Notes under the pieces: generated by a model
What the model saw: the letters and a program-made list of their open reading frames with translations, nothing else
What the model was told of the DNA's origin: nothing
Database searches by the model: none
Made by a program: the position numbers and the translations under genes
Part shown: piece by piece, positions 30,588-41,554 of the stretch
Numbering within the stretch: the first letter of the stretch is position 1
How the letters are laid out: every line of letters starts with the position of its first letter
NCBI RefSeq assembly: GCF_004634385.1
Contig: NZ_CP037895.1
Coordinates: 1,091,245-1,155,244 of the forward strand
Direction: 5' to 3'
Origin: Thermaerobacter sp. FW80
GTDB lineage: Bacteria > Bacillota > Sulfobacillia > Thermaerobacterales > Thermaerobacteraceae
Length of the DNA stretch: 64,000 bases

Positions 30588-30681
30588 GTTCCGGCCAGTC
30601 CTTGCCGAGCCGGTGCCGTCCGGGATCGATGGGCGACGCCGGCTCGGCGGCAGATCGCGGCCGAGGAGGGGCGCCATCCCG

Positions 30682-31017
30682 ATGGGGAGTGGGTTTCCAG
30701 ATGTCGTCACCCCTGACGAGCTACGCCGGCGACTTGAAGCCGGTGACGCCCCGTTGATCATCGACGTCCGCGAGCCCGACGAGTACGCCCGCGGGCACAT
30801 CCCAGGGGCACGGCTCCTGCCCTTGGGCGAGGTGCTCGCGCGGTCCCGCGACTTGCCGACCGACCAGGAGATCATCCTCGTCTGCCGCAGTGGCAACCGT
30901 TCCGGACTCGCCCAGGAATGGCTGAAGGCGAAGGGCTTCCGCAACGTCCGCAACCTGGCGGGCGGCATGCAACGGTGGAAGGGTCCGGTGGAATACGGCT
31001 CCGGCCAGGGACGGTGA
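30682..31017 (+). CDS. Single-domain rhodanese (sulfurtransferase)
   Basis: A 111-residue rhodanese that would carry sulfane sulfur as a cysteine persulfide. The domain covers the whole protein: IIDVREPDEYARGHIPGA, then the catalytic Cys68 in LVCRSGNRSG, and the C-terminal NLAGGMQRW. ATG 30682 is chosen; GGAGGGG lies 13 bases upstream, slightly far. It opens the plus-strand sulfur series and is 15 bases upstream of the rhodanese-dioxygenase fusion, so the two are likely co-transcribed from the promoter at 30526. Confidence 0.9.
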   Translation: MGSGFPDVVTPDELRRRLEAGDAPLIIDVREPDEYARGHIPGARLLPLGEVLARSRDLPTDQEIILVCRSGNRSGLAQEWLKAKGFRNVRNLAGGMQRWKGPVEYGSGQGR

Positions 31018-31032
31018 GGGGAGGGACAAGCG

Positions 31033-32181
31033 GTGGACGCGAGGACGCGGACGCCTGGGGAGATCGACGCCGGTGAGCTCAAGCGGATGCTGGACCGGGG
31101 CGAGACCCCGTTCGTGATCGATCTCCGCAATGACGAGGAGTTTCGCCGCTGGCGGATCGAAGGCCGCCAGCCCCTGCAGGTGATCCACGTGCCGTACTAC
31201 GAGATCCTGGCCGAGGCCGAGGAAGACGATCTCACCGCATCCGCCAAGGCCTACGCGCGCCGGCACTGGGTGGACGACCTGCCCCGGGAAGGGCGGATCG
31301 TGGTCGTGTGCGCCCACGGCGGCACCTCCGGGTATGTGGCCCAGGGGCTCCGCGAGCTGGGCTATGATGCCGTCAGCTTGCGCGGCGGCATGGTCGCCTG
31401 GGGCGACCATTGCGAATTCGTCCCCGTGGTGGAGGAAGAGGGCCTTGCCGTTTATCAGGTCAACCGCCCTGCCCGCGGCTGCCTGAGCTATCTGGTGGCC
31501 TCGGAGGGGGAGGCGGTGATCATCGACCCGCTGCGCCACGCCGAGCGCTACCTGGAGTTCGTGCGCCGGCACGGCATGACCATCACCCGGGTCCTGGACA
31601 CCCACGCCCACGCCGACCACATCAGCAGCGGCGCCGAACTGGCAGAACGACTGGGCGTGCCCTATCACCTGCACCCCTACGACGCCATTCACCCCATGGA
31701 CGTGTTGCCCGCGACCTTCCGCTACCAGCCGGTGTACGACGGGCAGGAGTTCCGTGTGGGCCGTGCCACCTTGCGTGCAATCCACGTGCCCGGGCACACC
31801 CTGGGACAGGTGGTCTACCTGCTGGACGGTCGCTACCTGTTCAGCGGTGACACCATCTTCGTCGAGTCCATCGCCCGCCCGGACCTGGGTGGCCGGGCCG
31901 AGACCTGGACGCCCCTGTATTACCGGTCCCTCCTGCGGCTGATGGAACTGCCCGACTCCACGCTGGTTCTTCCCGGACACTTCAGCCGGCCGCAGGAGGC
32001 CGACGCCCGCGGCCGCGTCGCCGCTCGGCTCGGGGACCTCAAGCGGTCCAACGAGGGACTGCAGGCCCTGGTGGCCGGCGAACGCGCCTTCGTCGACTTC
32101 ATCATGGCCCGTTTGCCGGAATTCCCGCAGCAATACGTGGACATCAAGCGGGTCAACGGTCAAGTCCCGAACTGTCTGTAA
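31033..32181 (+). CDS. Rhodanese / ETHE1-like persulfide dioxygenase fusion, 3' end cut by an IS
   Basis: The protein joins an N-terminal rhodanese domain (about 10-125, Cys in VVVCAHGGTSGYV) to a metallo-beta-lactamase persulfide dioxygenase domain (DTHAHADHISSG, HVPGHTLGQ, FSGDTIF, LPGHF). Such fusions oxidise glutathione- or CoA-type persulfides to sulfite; in CstB-type proteins the domain order is reversed. An IS256-type element begins at 32158, after codon 375, so the last seven residues (GQVPNCL) are read from the element. The missing 28 codons are found intact beyond it at 33593-33679. All catalytic motifs are upstream of the break, so the shortened protein may still work. Confidence 0.87.
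   Translation: MDARTRTPGEIDAGELKRMLDRGETPFVIDLRNDEEFRRWRIEGRQPLQVIHVPYYEILAEAEEDDLTASAKAYARRHWVDDLPREGRIVVVCAHGGTSGYVAQGLRELGYDAVSLRGGMVAWGDHCEFVPVVEEEGLAVYQVNRPARGCLSYLVASEGEAVIIDPLRHAERYLEFVRRHGMTITRVLDTHAHADHISSGAELAERLGVPYHLHPYDAIHPMDVLPATFRYQPVYDGQEFRVGRATLRAIHVPGHTLGQVVYLLDGRYLFSGDTIFVESIARPDLGGRAETWTPLYYRSLLRLMELPDSTLVLPGHFSRPQEADARGRVAARLGDLKRSNEGLQALVAGERAFVDFIMARLPEFPQQYVDIKRVNGQVPNCL
32149..32157 (+). repeat. Left target-site duplication CGGGTCAAC of the IS256-type element
   Basis: The same nine bases occur at 33584-33592 on the other side of the element. Removing the element with one copy restores the reading frame of the persulfide dioxygenase gene exactly. Confidence 0.9.
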
Positions 32182-33583
32182 AAGCGGTCTGGGTCATGCC
32201 ACGGTGGCAGCGGGTGAAACCTCTTTCTGCGCCGCTCTTTGCCGTTGCCGCTCCTCGATGTAGCGCTCCAGCTGCTTTCGTTCGTGCTCGCTGAACTGCA
32301 CCCGCCGCCAGCGCTCACTCGCCCGCCACAGCACGGCGAAGACTAGCTTCAGGCACTCCCGCTCGCTCCGAAACCGCGGGATCACCTTGGCGCGCCGCCG
32401 CTCCTCCTCGAAGCTGCGCTCCACCAGGTTGGTGGTCCGGACATGCTTGCGGTGGGCGGCGGGTAGCCGCAGGTGCGCCAGGCTCGCTTCCAGGTCCTCC
32501 TGCAGGCTCCGCATGGCCGAGGGATACTCCCGCCCGAACCGCTCCACCACCTCGGCCACCAGCCGCCGGCCCTGCTCGATATCCGGTGCGTCCCGGATCG
32601 CCTCCAGGTAGGGCTTGAGCACGGGCCGCGCCTCCTCCGGCACCTTGTCCAGCACGTTCCGCATCTTGTGCACCCAGCAGCGGATGCGCTCCGCCTCCGG
32701 CCACATGGCTTCCACCGCCTGGATCAGCCCCGGCGCCCCGTCCGTCGTCACCGTCAGCGGCGTCTTCAGCCCCCGGCGCACCAGATCCCGGAAGTGCTCC
32801 AGCCAGTCCTCGTAGCGCTCCTTGTTGCCCAGGCTCAGGTGCACCAGCACCTTGCTGCCGTCGCTCAAGATGGCCCAGGTGACCAGGATGCCCTCACGGC
32901 AGCCCGCCTGCCGGCGCAGCGACTCGTAGATGGCGTCGGCGAACAGGTACACCACGTCGAGGCCTGACAGGTCCCGCTGGGCAAAGGCCTCGAACTCCTC
33001 GTGGAGCGCCTCGGTGATCCGGCTCACGGTGGACCGGCTCAAAAGCGGCGCTTCGCTGCCCGCCAGCTCCGCCAGCGCATCCTCGATGTCCCGGCTAGAG
33101 AGGCCCCGGGCGTACATCTCCACCACCAGGCGCTCCAGCACGTCCGTCCGCCGCTTGAGGGCCCTCCACAGCGTGGGCTGGCACAGTCCCTCCATGCCCC
33201 GCACCTGGGGGACGTCGATCTCGAGCCGCCCCTCGGCGCAACGCAGCGTCCGCGGCTTGTAGCCGTTGCGGGCGCCTTCCTGGCCAGGCTCGCGCCGCTC
33301 GTAGCGTCCGCGCCCCAAAAGCTCCGTGACCTCTGCCTCCAGCAGCTCCTGGATGAGCTTGCGGGCGCCCAGGCGGACGAGGGCATGGGTCAGGTCCTCG
33401 ACCTCAGTACCCTCCCGGGCCTGCGCGGCCAGCTGCCGGGCCAGCTCCGCCAACTGCTGGCTGGGTGGTATCCTGGACATAGGTCTGGGTCCTCCTCGGT
33501 GTGCCCCAGCTGGGGCGAGTTTTCCGACGCCACCGATGGTAGCCCAGACCGCTTCGCGTTTACAGACAGTTTAGGACGTCACC
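32158..33583 (-). mobile_element. IS256-family insertion sequence
   Basis: A 1426-bp element with terminal inverted repeats of about 28 bp. Each end reads inward as GGT(C/G)A(A/C)GTCC, two variable bases, then AACTGTCTGTAAA, one variable base and GC. It is flanked by the 9-bp direct repeat CGGGTCAAC. The single transposase gene runs opposite to the interrupted gene. Intact ends, an intact transposase and a perfect duplication point to a fairly recent insertion. Confidence 0.93.
32194..33480 (-). CDS. IS256-family (mutator-type) transposase
   Basis: A 428-residue DDE transposase of the mutator class. The catalytic environment is visible: the first Asp in YLFADAIYESLR, the second in TVTTDGAPGLI, the conserved IRCWVHKMRNVLDKVP, and the Glu in TNLVERSFEEERRRAKVIPRF. 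The length is typical and the frame is intact. The gene is on the minus strand within the element at 32158-33583. Confidence 0.95.
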   Translation of the reverse strand: MSRIPPSQQLAELARQLAAQAREGTEVEDLTHALVRLGARKLIQELLEAEVTELLGRGRYERREPGQEGARNGYKPRTLRCAEGRLEIDVPQVRGMEGLCQPTLWRALKRRTDVLERLVVEMYARGLSSRDIEDALAELAGSEAPLLSRSTVSRITEALHEEFEAFAQRDLSGLDVVYLFADAIYESLRRQAGCREGILVTWAILSDGSKVLVHLSLGNKERYEDWLEHFRDLVRRGLKTPLTVTTDGAPGLIQAVEAMWPEAERIRCWVHKMRNVLDKVPEEARPVLKPYLEAIRDAPDIEQGRRLVAEVVERFGREYPSAMRSLQEDLEASLAHLRLPAAHRKHVRTTNLVERSFEEERRRAKVIPRFRSERECLKLVFAVLWRASERWRRVQFSEHERKQLERYIEERQRQRAAQKEVSPAATVA

Positions 33584-35847: not shown

Positions 35848-37143
35848 ATGGGAGAGCACCATCACGCGGGCGCAGAGCCATTCCGTGCTCGCGGACGTCC
35901 CGGGCTGCATGGGACCACCCGCCTCGGCGTGGCCGGGCTGGTGGCCGCATCGCTCTTCCTCGCTGCGTGCGGCGGGGTGATGACCCCGGCGGCGACCTTC
36001 GATCCCGACTACGAGGTGCGCTGGTACGAGTCCCAGAACGCTGCCGGGCCCGAACTCGATCCCCGGTGGGACGGTAACGGCTGGCCCTACGTCGCCGACG
36101 AGGTGAGCCAGGGTGTCACCGTGGTCGACCTGGCCACGGGCGAGCCGGTGCAGTTCATCCGCACCGAGGGCGGCGTGCCGCACCACCCGTACATCACCAA
36201 GGACCAGCGCTGGGTGCTGGTGACCATCCGTTACGGCGACTGGGTGGCGCCTGGGGATGTCGGCCGACGGCAAGTACGTGGCCGTCGCCAATACCCTGGA
36301 TGATGAAGTGATCATCATCGACACGGCGACGGACCAGATTGTCCACCGGGTCGGGAACGTGCCCAAGCCGGTGAACGTGGAGTTCCTTGGCAAGACCCAC
36401 GTCATCGCCACCGGCAATCGTGCCGACGGCTCCTTCTCTTTCATCGACGCGGACAAGGGCCAGCTGATCAAGACCGTCAAGACGGGCGGCGGGGCCAACA
36501 TCGCCTACTACGGTCCCGACGGCAACGTGTGGGTGAACCACAACGGCGCCCAGCACATCAGCGTGCTGGACTTCGCGACCTTCGAGGTCATCAAGGAGAT
36601 CCCGGTCGTCCAGAACCCGCACTGGATCTACTTCTCGCCGGACGGGAAGACCGCCTACGTCACCAACTGGGGCGCCAACTCGATCTCCATCATCGATGTG
36701 GAGAAGATGGAACGCATCAAGGACGTGGCGGTGGGTCTCAACCCCAACGGCATGGCTGCATGGCGCTGAAGTCCAACGTCCCCCCGGACGTCATCGCCCG
36801 GTGGCAGGCGAACAAGGACCAGGCCAAGGAGGTCATCGCCAAGGCCGCCAGGCTGGTGATGCCGGAGCCCCGCTCGGAGGCCGAGGCGTTGTTCTTCCAG
36901 AAGTGCACGATCTGCCATGACGTGGGCCGTATCATCCGCAACAACGCCCGGGGTGACCAGTGGGACGCCATTGTGGAGAAGATGCGGGGCAACGGGGCTC
37001 CCATCGACGACCGGGAGGCCAAGATCATAGCCGAGTATCTCAAGAGCGACCAGCACCGCAGCCTCGACATCAAGACCGAACTCCAGATCGAAGAGCCGTT
37101 GGACCCGGCCAAGGAGTGTGACGACGATCCCGCGATGCCTTAG
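35848..37143 (+). pseudogene. Frameshifted beta-propeller (YVTN) lipoprotein / cytochrome c gene
   Basis: The start (ATG after AAGGAGGTCC) encodes a lipoprotein signal with lipobox LAAC and the first propeller strands (VSQGVTVVDLATGEPV). The frame is lost near 36240-36257, where a blade is missing residues. The propeller continues in the next frame from MSADGKYVAVAN to NPNGMAAWR (stop 36769). A near-duplication CATGGCTG/CATGGCGCTG at 36751-36766 then shifts back to the first frame, giving LKSNVPPDVIARW and a class I cytochrome c domain with heme motif CTICH, ending at 37143. The two shifts cancel. As written it cannot make one protein, so I call it a decayed periplasmic electron carrier or dehydrogenase. 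Sequence errors could also explain it. Confidence 0.65.
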
Positions 37144-37257
37144 ACAGGGTCTTGCGGCCAAGCAATGATTGAGGGCTGCCGCAGGATGCTCAGCCGGGAG
37201 CCGGGGGACGGCCGACGGGGTGCGGCCTGACGGCGTCACCGCGGAAACGCACCTCAG

Positions 37258-37299
37258 GGGGAGGGAGGGCGCGCGTGCGCGCCCTCCCTCCCCTTTTTT
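37258..37299 (+). terminator. Intrinsic terminator
   Basis: A perfect 17-bp stem (37258-37274 and 37277-37293) with a two-base gap in the loop is followed directly by six T residues. This is the clearest rho-independent terminator in the window and closes the cytochrome region before the oxidase genes. Confidence 0.93.
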
Positions 37300-37605: not shown

Positions 37606-39229
37606 GAGCCTGTTTCACGAACCCAGGTATTTCCGCAGGATTGCACCCACGTGGGTTTAAGTGAGGCCATGGATTGGAATTCTCCGTCGCCCGAGGTGTC
37701 CCTATGGCCTACAACTTCCGCCCGGTGAACCGTGACCAACTGTACCTGCTTCCACCGAGCCTTCGCGACTGGCTGCCTGAGGACCATCTGGCCTGGTTCC
37801 TGATCGATGCGGTGGAGCAGATGGACCTGCGGGCCTTTTACGAGAAGTACCGCGCCGACGGCTGGGGTGGAGAGAGTTACGACCCGACCATGATGGTGAC
37901 GCTGCTGCTGTACGCCTACTGCGTCGGCGAGCGGTCGAGCCGGCGGATCGAGCGGTTGTGCCTCGAGGACGTGGCCTTCCGGGTGATCACCGCCAACCAG
38001 AAGCCGGATCACGTGACCATCGCCCGCTTCCGCCAGCGCCATGCGCGGGAACTGGCCGAGCTGTTCACGCAGGTGCTGCGGCTGTGCCGCGAGGCGGGGC
38101 TCGGGAAGGTGGGCGTGGTCGCCCTTGACGGGACGAAGATGAAGGCCAACGCCTCGCTGGCGGCCAACCGAACCTACGATGCGATTCGCCAGGAAGTGGA
38201 GAAGATGCTCCGGGAAGCGGAGGCCACGGACCGAGAAGAAGATGAGCGGTACGGCCCCGGGCGTCGTGGGGACGAGTTGCCGGAGGAGCTGCGCCACCGT
38301 GCGAGCCGGCTGGAGCGGCTAAAGGCATGCAAGCGGCGGCTGGAGGAAGAGGCGGCCCGGGAAGCCGCCCGGCAGCAGGCCCGCATCGACGAACGGAAGG
38401 CCCAGGAGCAGGCGACCGGCAAGAAGCGGCGGGGGCGGAAGCCGAAGGCGCCGGATCCCTCGGTGGATCCGGCAGCCAAGGCCAACATCACGGATCCGGA
38501 CAGCCGGATCCTGAAGACCCGGCAGGGCTTTGTGCAAGGGTACAACGCCCAGGCGGTGGTGAGCGAAGACCAACTCATCGTGGCCGCGGCGGTGACGCAG
38601 GACGCCAACGACGTGGGCCAACTGCACCCGATGCTCCAGCAGGCGCAAGCCAACCTCCGGGCCGCGGGCGTGGACGAGCCCATCCGGGCCGTGGTGGCCG
38701 ATGCGGGGTACTGGAGCGAGGCGAACGTGAAGCAGGCGCCGGCCGAAGGGCCGGAGCTGTTCCTGGCGACGAGCAAGGAGTGGAAGCATCGTCAGGCGGT
38801 GAAGGATGCACCCCCTCCGCGGGGCCGGATCCCCAAGGGGCTGAGCCTGCGGGAGCGGATGGAACGCAAGCTGCGGACCCGGCGAGGGCAGGCGATCTAC
38901 GCCAAGCGCAGCCAGACCGTGGAGCCGGTGTTTGGGCAGATCAAGGCCGTGCGAGGCGCCGACCGGTTCCTGCGTCGCGGTCTGGCGGCGTGTGACAGCG
39001 AGTGGAAGCTGCTCTGCTTGACCCACAACTTGCTGAAGCTCTGGCGAAGGGTGACGGAGAGATCCGCGTCCTTACCCTTTCGTTGCACTGCTGCGGCGCC
39101 GGCGTAGAAGGGCAGCGACCGGGGCCCCCTCACCGACGCGATGCTGACCGCCAACCCATGCGATGTTGCTGTATAGGCTCAGTACCTTCCAGCCCGTCCC
39201 GATCAAGTCAGTGTCCGTGAAACAGGCTC
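37606..39229 (+). mobile_element. IS1182-family insertion sequence
   Basis: A 1624-bp element with terminal inverted repeats whose perfect core is GAGCCTGTTTCACG (37606-37619, and inverted at 39216-39229). The 4-bp direct repeat CCAA flanks it (37602-37605 and 39230-39233). It carries one transposase gene in the same direction as the interrupted oxidase operon. Confidence 0.9.
37704..39107 (+). CDS. IS1182-family transposase
   Basis: A 467-residue DDE transposase with the IS1182 arrangement: the N-terminal LPPSLRDWLPEDHLAWFLIDAV type segment, PDHVTIARFRQRH, the first catalytic Asp in VVALDGTKMKANAS, the central coiled-coil and basic region, the second Asp in VVADAGYWSEAN, and the C-terminal QTVEPVFGQIKAVRG with the Glu. 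The frame is intact. ATG 37704 is used; an upstream ATG at 37674 is in frame but adds no conserved sequence. Confidence 0.93.
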   Translation: MAYNFRPVNRDQLYLLPPSLRDWLPEDHLAWFLIDAVEQMDLRAFYEKYRADGWGGESYDPTMMVTLLLYAYCVGERSSRRIERLCLEDVAFRVITANQKPDHVTIARFRQRHARELAELFTQVLRLCREAGLGKVGVVALDGTKMKANASLAANRTYDAIRQEVEKMLREAEATDREEDERYGPGRRGDELPEELRHRASRLERLKACKRRLEEEAAREAARQQARIDERKAQEQATGKKRRGRKPKAPDPSVDPAAKANITDPDSRILKTRQGFVQGYNAQAVVSEDQLIVAAAVTQDANDVGQLHPMLQQAQANLRAAGVDEPIRAVVADAGYWSEANVKQAPAEGPELFLATSKEWKHRQAVKDAPPPRGRIPKGLSLRERMERKLRTRRGQAIYAKRSQTVEPVFGQIKAVRGADRFLRRGLAACDSEWKLLCLTHNLLKLWRRVTERSASLPFRCTAAAPA

Positions 39230-39366: not shown

Positions 39367-39870
39367 ATGGTCGTGCACGTCGACCGCTACGAAAAGATGT
39401 GGATCTGGGTCAGCGCAGCCTTCCAGCTCGCGCTTGTTCTGGTGCTGGCGTACACCACCTTCGGCATGGGCATTCGCCTGCCCGGTTCGGGTGACGCCCA
39501 CGCGGCCGGCGTCGACCACCGGACGGCGGCGCCGGCACGCGTGACGGCGAATGATCCGCCCTTCACCTCACCGGGAGTTCGTGCCGTAGGGCCCAACCGG
39601 TATGAGGTCGTCATGACGGCGCAGGCCTTCGGATACGAGCCCAACGAGATCCGCATTCCCCGGGGTGCGACGGTCGACTTCGTGGTGACGAGCAAGGACG
39701 TGATTCACGGTTTCATGATTCCAGGAACCACGGTGAACACGATGATCATCCCGGGCCAGGTGACCCACGTGCAATATACCTTCGACGAGCCGGGCGAGTA
39801 CACGTTCTTCTGTCACGAGTACTGCGGGATCGGGCATCACGTGATGTCGGGCCGGATCGTCGTCGAATGA
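39367..39870 (+). CDS. ba3-type cytochrome c oxidase subunit II (CuA protein)
   Basis: A 167-residue subunit with one N-terminal membrane helix (WIWVSAAFQLALVLVLAYTTF) and an external cupredoxin domain that accepts electrons from cytochrome c at the binuclear CuA centre. CuA ligands are visible: the His in SKDVIHGF and the cluster CHEYCGIGHHVM (two Cys, His, Met). The short length and single helix are typical of the ba3/B-family. The ATG has GGGAGGCG upstream. It lies between subunit IIa and subunit I. Confidence 0.93.
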   Translation: MVVHVDRYEKMWIWVSAAFQLALVLVLAYTTFGMGIRLPGSGDAHAAGVDHRTAAPARVTANDPPFTSPGVRAVGPNRYEVVMTAQAFGYEPNEIRIPRGATVDFVVTSKDVIHGFMIPGTTVNTMIIPGQVTHVQYTFDEPGEYTFFCHEYCGIGHHVMSGRIVVE

Positions 39871-39901
39871 GGCCGGCGGCATCGAGGGGGACGTGACGAC
39901 C

Positions 39902-41554
39902 ATGGAATCTCGCGGCATTCCGCTGGAGTTCCGTGGGGATTATGCCGACGCCCGCAAGCACCTGCTCACCGCCATCTTTTTCGGCCTGGTGCTGGGCGTG
40001 TTGATGGGCCCGCTGCAGGCCCTCGACAAGGCACGCATCGATTTGTACCAGAACCTACCCTTGATCAAGAGTTACTATCAGGGGCTCACCCTCCACGGCG
40101 TCGCGCTGGCCCTGATCTGGACCAGCTTTTTCAACGTGGGCTTCCTGACGTTCACCGCGGTGCGGGGCTTCGGCCGCCCCTTGCAGAGCCGGCGTCTGAG
40201 CCGGGCCACCCTGTGGATCATGTGGGCCGGCCTTGCCCTGGCGCTGTTCGCCATTCTGACCAACCGGGCCACCGTCCTGTTCACCGCCTACGCGCCCCTG
40301 AAGGGGCACTGGACCTTCTACACCGGAGTGGCCCTGTTCGCCGTCGTCGGCACGTGGTTGCTGGCGGCCAACGTCTTCTTGACGTACCGAGCGTGGAAGC
40401 GCGACAACCCGGGCCGGAAGACGCCCCTACTGGCCTTCGGTACCCTGGTGACGCTGACCATGTGGACCCTCGCCACCAGCGGCGTGGCGACGGAGTTCGT
40501 GATCTACCTCATCCCGTGGTCGCTGGGCTTGCGGGAGGGCATCGACCCGCTGCTGACGCGCAGCCTGTTCTGGCTGACGGGCCATCCCATCGTGTACTGG
40601 TGGCTGCTCCCGGCCTACCTGTCGTGGTACTTCATGCTGCCGCGCCAGGCGGGCGGCAAGCTGTTCAGCGAATCCATGGCGCGGCTGGCCCTGCTGCTGT
40701 TCATCCCCTTCTCCCTGCCCGTCGGCGTCCACCACATGTACACCGACCCCGGGGTCGCCACCCACAGCAAGATGCTGCACGGCTTTCTGACCTTTGTGGT
40801 CTTCCTGCCGAGCTTGATCACGGCCTTCACGGTGGTGGCCTCCCTGGAGATCGCGGGACGCCAGCGCGGGGGCCGGGGATGGCTGGGGTGGATCCGCGCC
40901 CTGCCGTGGCGGGAACCCTCGGTGGCGGCCCAGTTGCTGGCCATGGTGCTCTTCACCGTGGGCGGGGCGTCGGGCCTGATCAACGCCTCCTATGTCCTGA
41001 ACCTGCTGGTCCACAACACGCTGTTCGTGGTGGGGCACTTCCACCTGACCGTAGGCAGCGCCGTCACCCTCACCTTCATGGGCATCAGCTACTGGCTGAT
41101 TCCCGAGTTGACCGGCCGTGCGCTGCGCGGCCGGCGGGTCGCGCTGGCCCAGGTGTGGCTGTGGTTCCTCGGCGTGGCCATCATGGGCCGTGGGATGGCG
41201 GCGATGGGGCTGGAGGGGGTGCCCCGTCGCACCTGGTGGTCCCAGGCCGCGTACCAGATCGCCGAGGCCCAGGCCGGCGGCGTGATGACGGCCGCGGGCG
41301 GCGCGCTCCTTTTCGTCAGCATGCTGCTGTTCGTGGGCGTCGTCGTGGTGACGATGCGCGGTGCGGAAGCTCCAGCGCGGCAGGCGGTACCCGTTGCCGA
41401 GCCCCTGGACGGCGGCATGCCGGTGCCGGTGTGGCTCAACCGGCTGACCCCGTGGGTCGTCGGTACCGTGGTCCTCACCCTGTTGGCCTGGGGTCCCGTG
41501 GTGTGGGGACTGCTGCAGTCGCCGTTCAGCGCCCCCGGCCTGAGGGCCTGGTGA
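39902..41554 (+). CDS. ba3-type cytochrome c oxidase subunit I
   Basis: A membrane protein of about 550 residues that reduces O2 to water and pumps protons. Ligands are in place: the low-spin heme His in YYQGLTLHGVAL, the CuB His-Tyr pair in TGHPIVYWWLLP, the CuB HH in GVHHMYTDPG, and the paired heme His in VVGHFHLTVG. About thirteen hydrophobic segments are present. The glutamate of A-family D-channels is absent, as expected for B-family oxidases. ATG 39902 has GAGGGGGA ten bases upstream, better than GTG 39893. It is the last gene of the oxidase operon. Confidence 0.95.
   Translation: MESRGIPLEFRGDYADARKHLLTAIFFGLVLGVLMGPLQALDKARIDLYQNLPLIKSYYQGLTLHGVALALIWTSFFNVGFLTFTAVRGFGRPLQSRRLSRATLWIMWAGLALALFAILTNRATVLFTAYAPLKGHWTFYTGVALFAVVGTWLLAANVFLTYRAWKRDNPGRKTPLLAFGTLVTLTMWTLATSGVATEFVIYLIPWSLGLREGIDPLLTRSLFWLTGHPIVYWWLLPAYLSWYFMLPRQAGGKLFSESMARLALLLFIPFSLPVGVHHMYTDPGVATHSKMLHGFLTFVVFLPSLITAFTVVASLEIAGRQRGGRGWLGWIRALPWREPSVAAQLLAMVLFTVGGASGLINASYVLNLLVHNTLFVVGHFHLTVGSAVTLTFMGISYWLIPELTGRALRGRRVALAQVWLWFLGVAIMGRGMAAMGLEGVPRRTWWSQAAYQIAEAQAGGVMTAAGGALLFVSMLLFVGVVVVTMRGAEAPARQAVPVAEPLDGGMPVPVWLNRLTPWVVGTVVLTLLAWGPVVWGLLQSPFSAPGLRAW

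Follow-up and report, generated by a model that had tools for sequence, protein, structure and literature searches.

Organization of the locus

The window is a 64,000-nucleotide stretch of the Thermaerobacter sp. FW80 genome (G000 in our set), and coordinates are positions in this stretch unless another locus is named. On its forward strand, positions 35848-37143 hold what reads as one gene in three pieces, in frames 1, 2 and 1. Genes for a rhodanese, a rhodanese-MBL protein, a TusA-rhodanese, a DsrE protein and a TauE protein lie upstream, and a two-gene heme-copper oxidase (COX2 and COX1) lies downstream. The Pfam basis of these names is direct for the FW80 TauE protein and runs through homologs in genome G422 for rhodanese-MBL, TusA-rhodanese and DsrE. 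Two insertion elements are also present, whose family names, IS256 and IS1182, are presumptive. The features are as follows:

32157-33573: IS256-type element within the 3' end of rhodanese-MBL (gene coordinates, 31033-32181); 9 bp of target sequence duplicated
35848-36247, + strand: 5' piece, frame 1; encodes the lipoprotein signal (lipobox FLAAC) together with the first propeller repeat; E = 5.4e-82 against the intact congener protein
36248-36249, + strand: point at which 350 bp present in congeners G003 and G001 are deleted, from DNA alignment
36257-36769, + strand: middle piece, frame 2; 170-codon open reading frame with the propeller repeats that remain; E = 1.1e-107 to the congener protein
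36301-36306, + strand: two frame-1 stops (TAG and TGA) that end translation past the deletion
36750-36765, + strand: 8-bp tandem duplication (copies 36750-36757 and 36758-36765, 7 of 8 positions identical), cause of the second frameshift
36763-37143, + strand: 3' piece, back in frame 1; carries CTICH in a monoheme cytochrome c-like domain; stop TAG at 37141; E = 2.6e-72 to the congener protein
37256-37295, + strand: terminator-like hairpin (18 pairs, then a T-run), separating the broken gene from the oxidase genes
37606-39229, + strand: IS1182-like element flanked by the broken gene and coxII; its inverted repeats are GAGCCTGTTTCACG, and 4 bp of target sequence (CCAA) are duplicated

Since each piece matches the intact congener protein at the E values listed, their succession is not a product of chance. 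The middle piece passes the Pfam YNCE cut-off (48.3 bits against 27.1). The 3' piece retains the methionine of a VEKM motif, has SorB chain 2blf_B as its match among solved structures (E = 4.2e-05), and falls below the cut-offs of both the SorB-like model (34 bits against 93) and Pfam Cytochrome_CBB3 (PF13442; 18.9 bits against 27). When the sequences were read by eye, no signal sequence was visible in the middle or the 3' piece. An earlier note on this DNA had placed a lipoprotein signal, a propeller and a CTICH cytochrome domain in frames 1, 2 and 1; its coordinates and frames were right, and all of the pieces match a single congener protein.

The IS256-type insertion replaces the last 28 residues of rhodanese-MBL, as judged by comparison with congener G002. 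At least 27 full-length copies at 99-100% identity occur in the FW80 genome (40 of 313 candidates scored), and the three congeners yielded no full-length copy and short matches at most (40 of 255-280 candidates scored in each); the expansion of this element in FW80 is recent. The IS1182-like element has four copies at 100% identity in FW80 along with diverged ones, which occur also in G001, and it is absent at the equivalent place in G002 and G003. Two terminator-like sites were found in the stretch scanned against a mean of 0.7 in shuffled sequence.

Divergence at synonymous sites differs along the window. For oxidase subunit I (39367-41554; L005 8190-10353), dS is 0.05 between FW80 and G002 and 0.60 between FW80 and G003, and for the upstream sulfur genes it is 0.15-0.46 between FW80 and G003. 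From this contrast, an exchange of the oxidase cassette is possible.

Intact orthologs and the nature of the lesions

The genus is represented by four genomes, FW80 included. The earlier note had proposed a comparison with relatives, and the gene proved to be whole in two of the three congeners (G003 and G001), where 593 codons are open without an internal stop and a protein of ~545 residues with a lipoprotein signal, a YVTN-type propeller and a CxxCH domain is encoded in a single frame. These orthologs sit behind the same TauE gene as the FW80 copy. In G002, a search returned no match to the gene, and the DNA runs from the end of TauE (equivalent to 35683) to the equivalent of 37191 within ~75 bases. 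Either the genus has lost the gene on more than one occasion, or the loss was in G002.

Against these references, the FW80 copy lacks ~117 residues, corresponding to over two of approximately eight repeats (a count of conserved motif positions in the homolog alignment), through the 350-bp deletion. The suggestion that the first frameshift had removed part of a propeller blade was therefore correct as to a deletion but fell short of its extent. In G003, the 6-bp sequence GCGGCC stands at both ends of the missing segment, 349 bp apart, and the FW80 junction is one base short of a clean join between these repeats. The second frameshift does coincide, as had been noticed, with an 8-base near-duplication, visible as tandem copies against both intact congeners. 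Illegitimate recombination would account for the deletion, and slippage for the duplication.

The two changes had been described as compensating. Their sum is indeed a multiple of three (-350 + 8 = -342), but no reading is restored by them, since translation from ATG 35848 crosses the deletion junction in frame 1 and ends at TAG 36301 and TGA 36304, 53 nt after the deletion. The frame is thus broken twice, with an early stop, by a 350-bp loss and an 8-bp tandem duplication. A working product is not expected, because the heme of cytochrome c is attached outside the membrane and the cytochrome piece, without a visible signal sequence, could not acquire its heme there. We conclude, with a probability of about 0.93, that the locus is a pseudogene, inactivated recently, whose intact form encoded an exported β-propeller/cytochrome c fusion protein with a lipid anchor. 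The two intact congeners thereby bear out the initial description of a broken propeller/cytochrome c gene carrying a deletion and a small duplication.

Alternative explanations for the broken frame

The evidence from FW80 consists of one assembly of one strain, at the level of sequence, and an alternative hypothesis is that the strain carries the whole gene, of which the assembly dropped 350 bp and misread a short repeat. The assembly is in three contigs, and the 6 bp common to the deletion ends, with a junction one base off a clean repeat join, would be compatible with such a fault. However, it would have to explain two unlike defects ~500 bp apart. Elsewhere in the FW80 assembly, moreover, the missing segment has no more than a 37-base match at 84% identity (40 of 125 candidates scored). 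A second intact copy of the gene was not found there. Seven neighboring genes, compared over their aligned parts with whichever two or three congeners have them, contain no gap that departs from a multiple of three. A 15-base gap occurs in coxII against G003; coxI and coxII have no match in the G001 stretch, and the first 20 codons of the rhodanese, the first 14 of the TusA-rhodanese and a few terminal codons remained outside the aligned parts. Since a clean 350-bp loss is unlike an indel error and these seven genes are free of frame-breaking gaps, sequencing error is unlikely; we take the lesions as real and consider an artifact of sequencing or assembly very improbable.

Selection on the pieces was estimated from dN/dS. 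For the joined pieces, the ratio was 0.25 between FW80 and G003 and 0.27 between FW80 and G001 (bootstrap range, 0.16-0.44), compared with 0.22 between the two intact congeners. Taken singly, the pieces gave 0.37 and 0.39 (5'), 0.29 and 0.23 (middle) and 0.16 and 0.18 (3') to the two congeners. Intact neighbors gave 0.11-0.21 to G003 (six genes) and 0.10-0.19 to G001 (four genes), and reached 0.37 to G002 (coxI); this set omits the rhodanese gene at 30613-31017, and for rhodanese-MBL the comparison stops at 32157, ahead of the insertion element. The broken copy is therefore slightly above its like-for-like neighbors and far from 1, with a bootstrap range that overlaps the intact genes, so that neutral drift does not follow from these ratios. 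A slightly raised ratio is what recent loss would give, or the result of a test without power.

The continued conservation of the pieces, with ratios of 0.16-0.39 to the congeners, would also fit a working split gene in which three coupled open frames yield separate polypeptides that assemble. The arrangement of the frames lends itself to this, in that the open reading frame from 36257 begins ahead of the stop at 36301, and ATG 36760, which the 8-bp duplication creates in frame 1, overlaps the frame-2 stop and precedes its position at 36767, so that the cytochrome piece may be translated by coupling. Yet over two propeller repeats would be missing from the assembled product, the second and third pieces have no visible signal sequence for a protein whose heme must be attached outside the membrane, and none of 11 full-length homologs is split, so that we regard a functional split gene as still less probable than an artifact. 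Programmed frameshifting, for which the net change of a multiple of three is the one favorable sign, can be dismissed almost entirely: the intact congeners require no shift, no full-length product can arise once 350 bp of coding DNA are gone, and the RNA at the second site is structureless, folding no better than shuffled sequence (z = 0.18).

Relationship of the intact protein to known families

The intact congener protein passes the cut-offs of Pfam YNCE (PF21783; 72.9 bits against 27.1) and of the NCBIfam YVTN repeat model TIGR02276 (104.6 against 27.85), on which its likeness to YncE-like and YVTN propellers rests. It also passes those of Pfam Lactonase, Cytochrom_D1 and DUF5074, all of them propeller families. 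In E. coli YncE, the propeller has seven blades and heme is absent; in contrast, the intact protein has approximately eight repeats and adds a monoheme cytochrome c-like domain at its C terminus. This putative cytochrome domain is named from its CxxCH motif, a conserved methionine and its likeness to SorB, and it stays below the Pfam cut-offs for cytochrome c; a Pfam search with the entire congener protein found no cytochrome c family at E ≤ 0.01. Residues C468, C471, H472 and M494 are invariant in all 11 homologs and are kept in the FW80 copy.

SorB, the cytochrome subunit of sulfite:cytochrome c oxidoreductase, which pairs with a molybdenum subunit, was the one relative of solved structure to be found for the cytochrome piece (2blf chain B). 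Membership in the SorB family was rejected, as the whole congener protein scores 31.1 bits against the cut-off of model NF052246 (93; the FW80 piece was likewise below it). The domain is here fused to a propeller. Cytochrome cd1, NirF and NirN share with the intact protein the combination of propeller and cytochrome c, and Pfam Cytochrom_D1 matches residues 89-419 (49.7 bits, cut-off 25.5); the intact protein differs in having its cytochrome at the C terminus. A heme d1 protein was rejected because NirJ exceeded its cut-off in none of eight genomes (best score, 208.2 against 515.45), a result that comes without a positive control, as 0 of 14 control genomes exceeded it either. Likeness to thiocyanate dehydrogenase is at the level of the propeller sequence (34.8 bits to 8q9x, which we take to be that enzyme although the entry itself carries another name). 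That enzyme is recognized by the ligands of a trinuclear copper center in the propeller tunnel. Four propeller histidines (H113, H114, H163 and H376) are invariant in 11 of 11 homologs; because the homolog in G644 has a histidine at the same repeat position in further repeats, they may belong to the repeat as such, and we claim no metal center. The clade III (lactonase-type) nitrous-oxide reductases were rejected as well, at 108.5 bits against an L-NosZ cut-off of 700. Titles and abstract openings in the literature on propeller enzymes, cbb3 oxidases and Thermaerobacter contained no description of this propeller-cytochrome c family, which is recognizable and apparently uncharacterized.

Distribution of the family

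A search of 398 genomes of the phylum at E ≤ 1e-30 gave six matches. Three belong to the genus; in G400 (74%) and G422 (46%) the match spans almost the full length, and in G187 it covers a portion of the propeller. At 1e-60, 7 of 199 genomes in the order of G422 matched, G422 among them, and in the order of G400 the sole match in 14 genomes was G400 itself. The class of G422 yielded 4 of 398 at 1e-80 (G422, G505, G644 and G695). Across the genomes searched, the family is rare and patchy. Two scans of a genome-contig collection and one of viral contigs gave pattern matches, none of which was confirmed by tblastn, while a separate genome collection does yield homologs. For plasmids, 455 records showed propeller-level likeness and none had a single place covering 80% of the query.

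Association with oxidases and proposed function

Outside the genus, intact homologs have a recurrent setting. In seven of seven readable loci, five in genus g292 and two in g310 (both presumably Bacillales-like), the gene ends a cbb3-like oxidase operon, behind which a LysR-type gene stands in the opposite direction; the order is the same in all seven, with the locus of G695 left out because a contig end cuts it:

L028 7817-12590 (also L037-L042): cbb3-like operon of ccoN, ccoO, ccoP, a CcoG-like gene (product of ~203 residues) and, last, the propeller-cytochrome c gene

We use the wording cbb3-like because the G422 operon genes, the only ones scored, exceed the Pfam cut-offs for COX1 and FixO but fall below the NCBIfam cut-offs for ccoN, ccoO and ccoG. 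The DsrE/TusA-rhodanese/rhodanese-MBL/TauE set faces the operon in all five g292 loci and was found in neither g310 locus, within 16.5 and 15.9 kb. Neither cbb3-like oxidase genes nor genes of the sulfur set were found beside the homologs of G400 and G644 (16.0 and 13.8 kb).

Within Thermaerobacter, the sulfur gene set is kept in all four genomes, with rhodanese-MBL truncated in FW80, and the presence of the gene is independent of that of the neighboring oxidase. In G001, which carries the gene intact, nothing matches FW80 oxidase subunit I at better than 36%, and G002 carries the oxidase but not the propeller-cytochrome gene; therefore, the neighboring oxidase is not an obligatory partner. 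From its place between a sulfite exporter and an oxidase, the earlier note had suggested that the intact gene passed electrons from sulfur oxidation to the oxidase. The operon context in seven of seven loci and the sulfur set in five of the seven favor this idea, whereas the arrangements in G001, G002, G400 and G644 speak against it, so that its support is mixed. As judged from gene context, it is plausible that proteins of the family form part of a route for electrons from sulfur compounds to an oxidase, and the context in two distant genera supports a link to an oxidase and, in one of them, to sulfur as well. In relatives, the intact protein would act on the outer face of the membrane as a carrier that delivers electrons to a heme-copper (cbb3-like) oxidase, and sulfur compounds may be what is oxidized.

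We further speculate, and give this reading a low probability, that the intact family is an undescribed exported propeller-cytochrome dehydrogenase that may oxidize a sulfur compound outside the membrane and feed the oxidase, and that it was lost in FW80. This reading is suggested because the gene closes a cbb3-like operon in two genera and faces a persulfide/sulfite-handling module in one; candidate substrates may be sulfite, thiocyanate or a persulfide.

For FW80, the lesion is best understood as an ordinary case of pseudogene formation, in a genome where an insertion sequence has expanded recently, and the genus offers a natural series of species in which the gene is whole, broken or missing. 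The pseudogene also points to an intact and apparently uncharacterized propeller-cytochrome c family, whose place in an oxidase operon is conserved in two genera.
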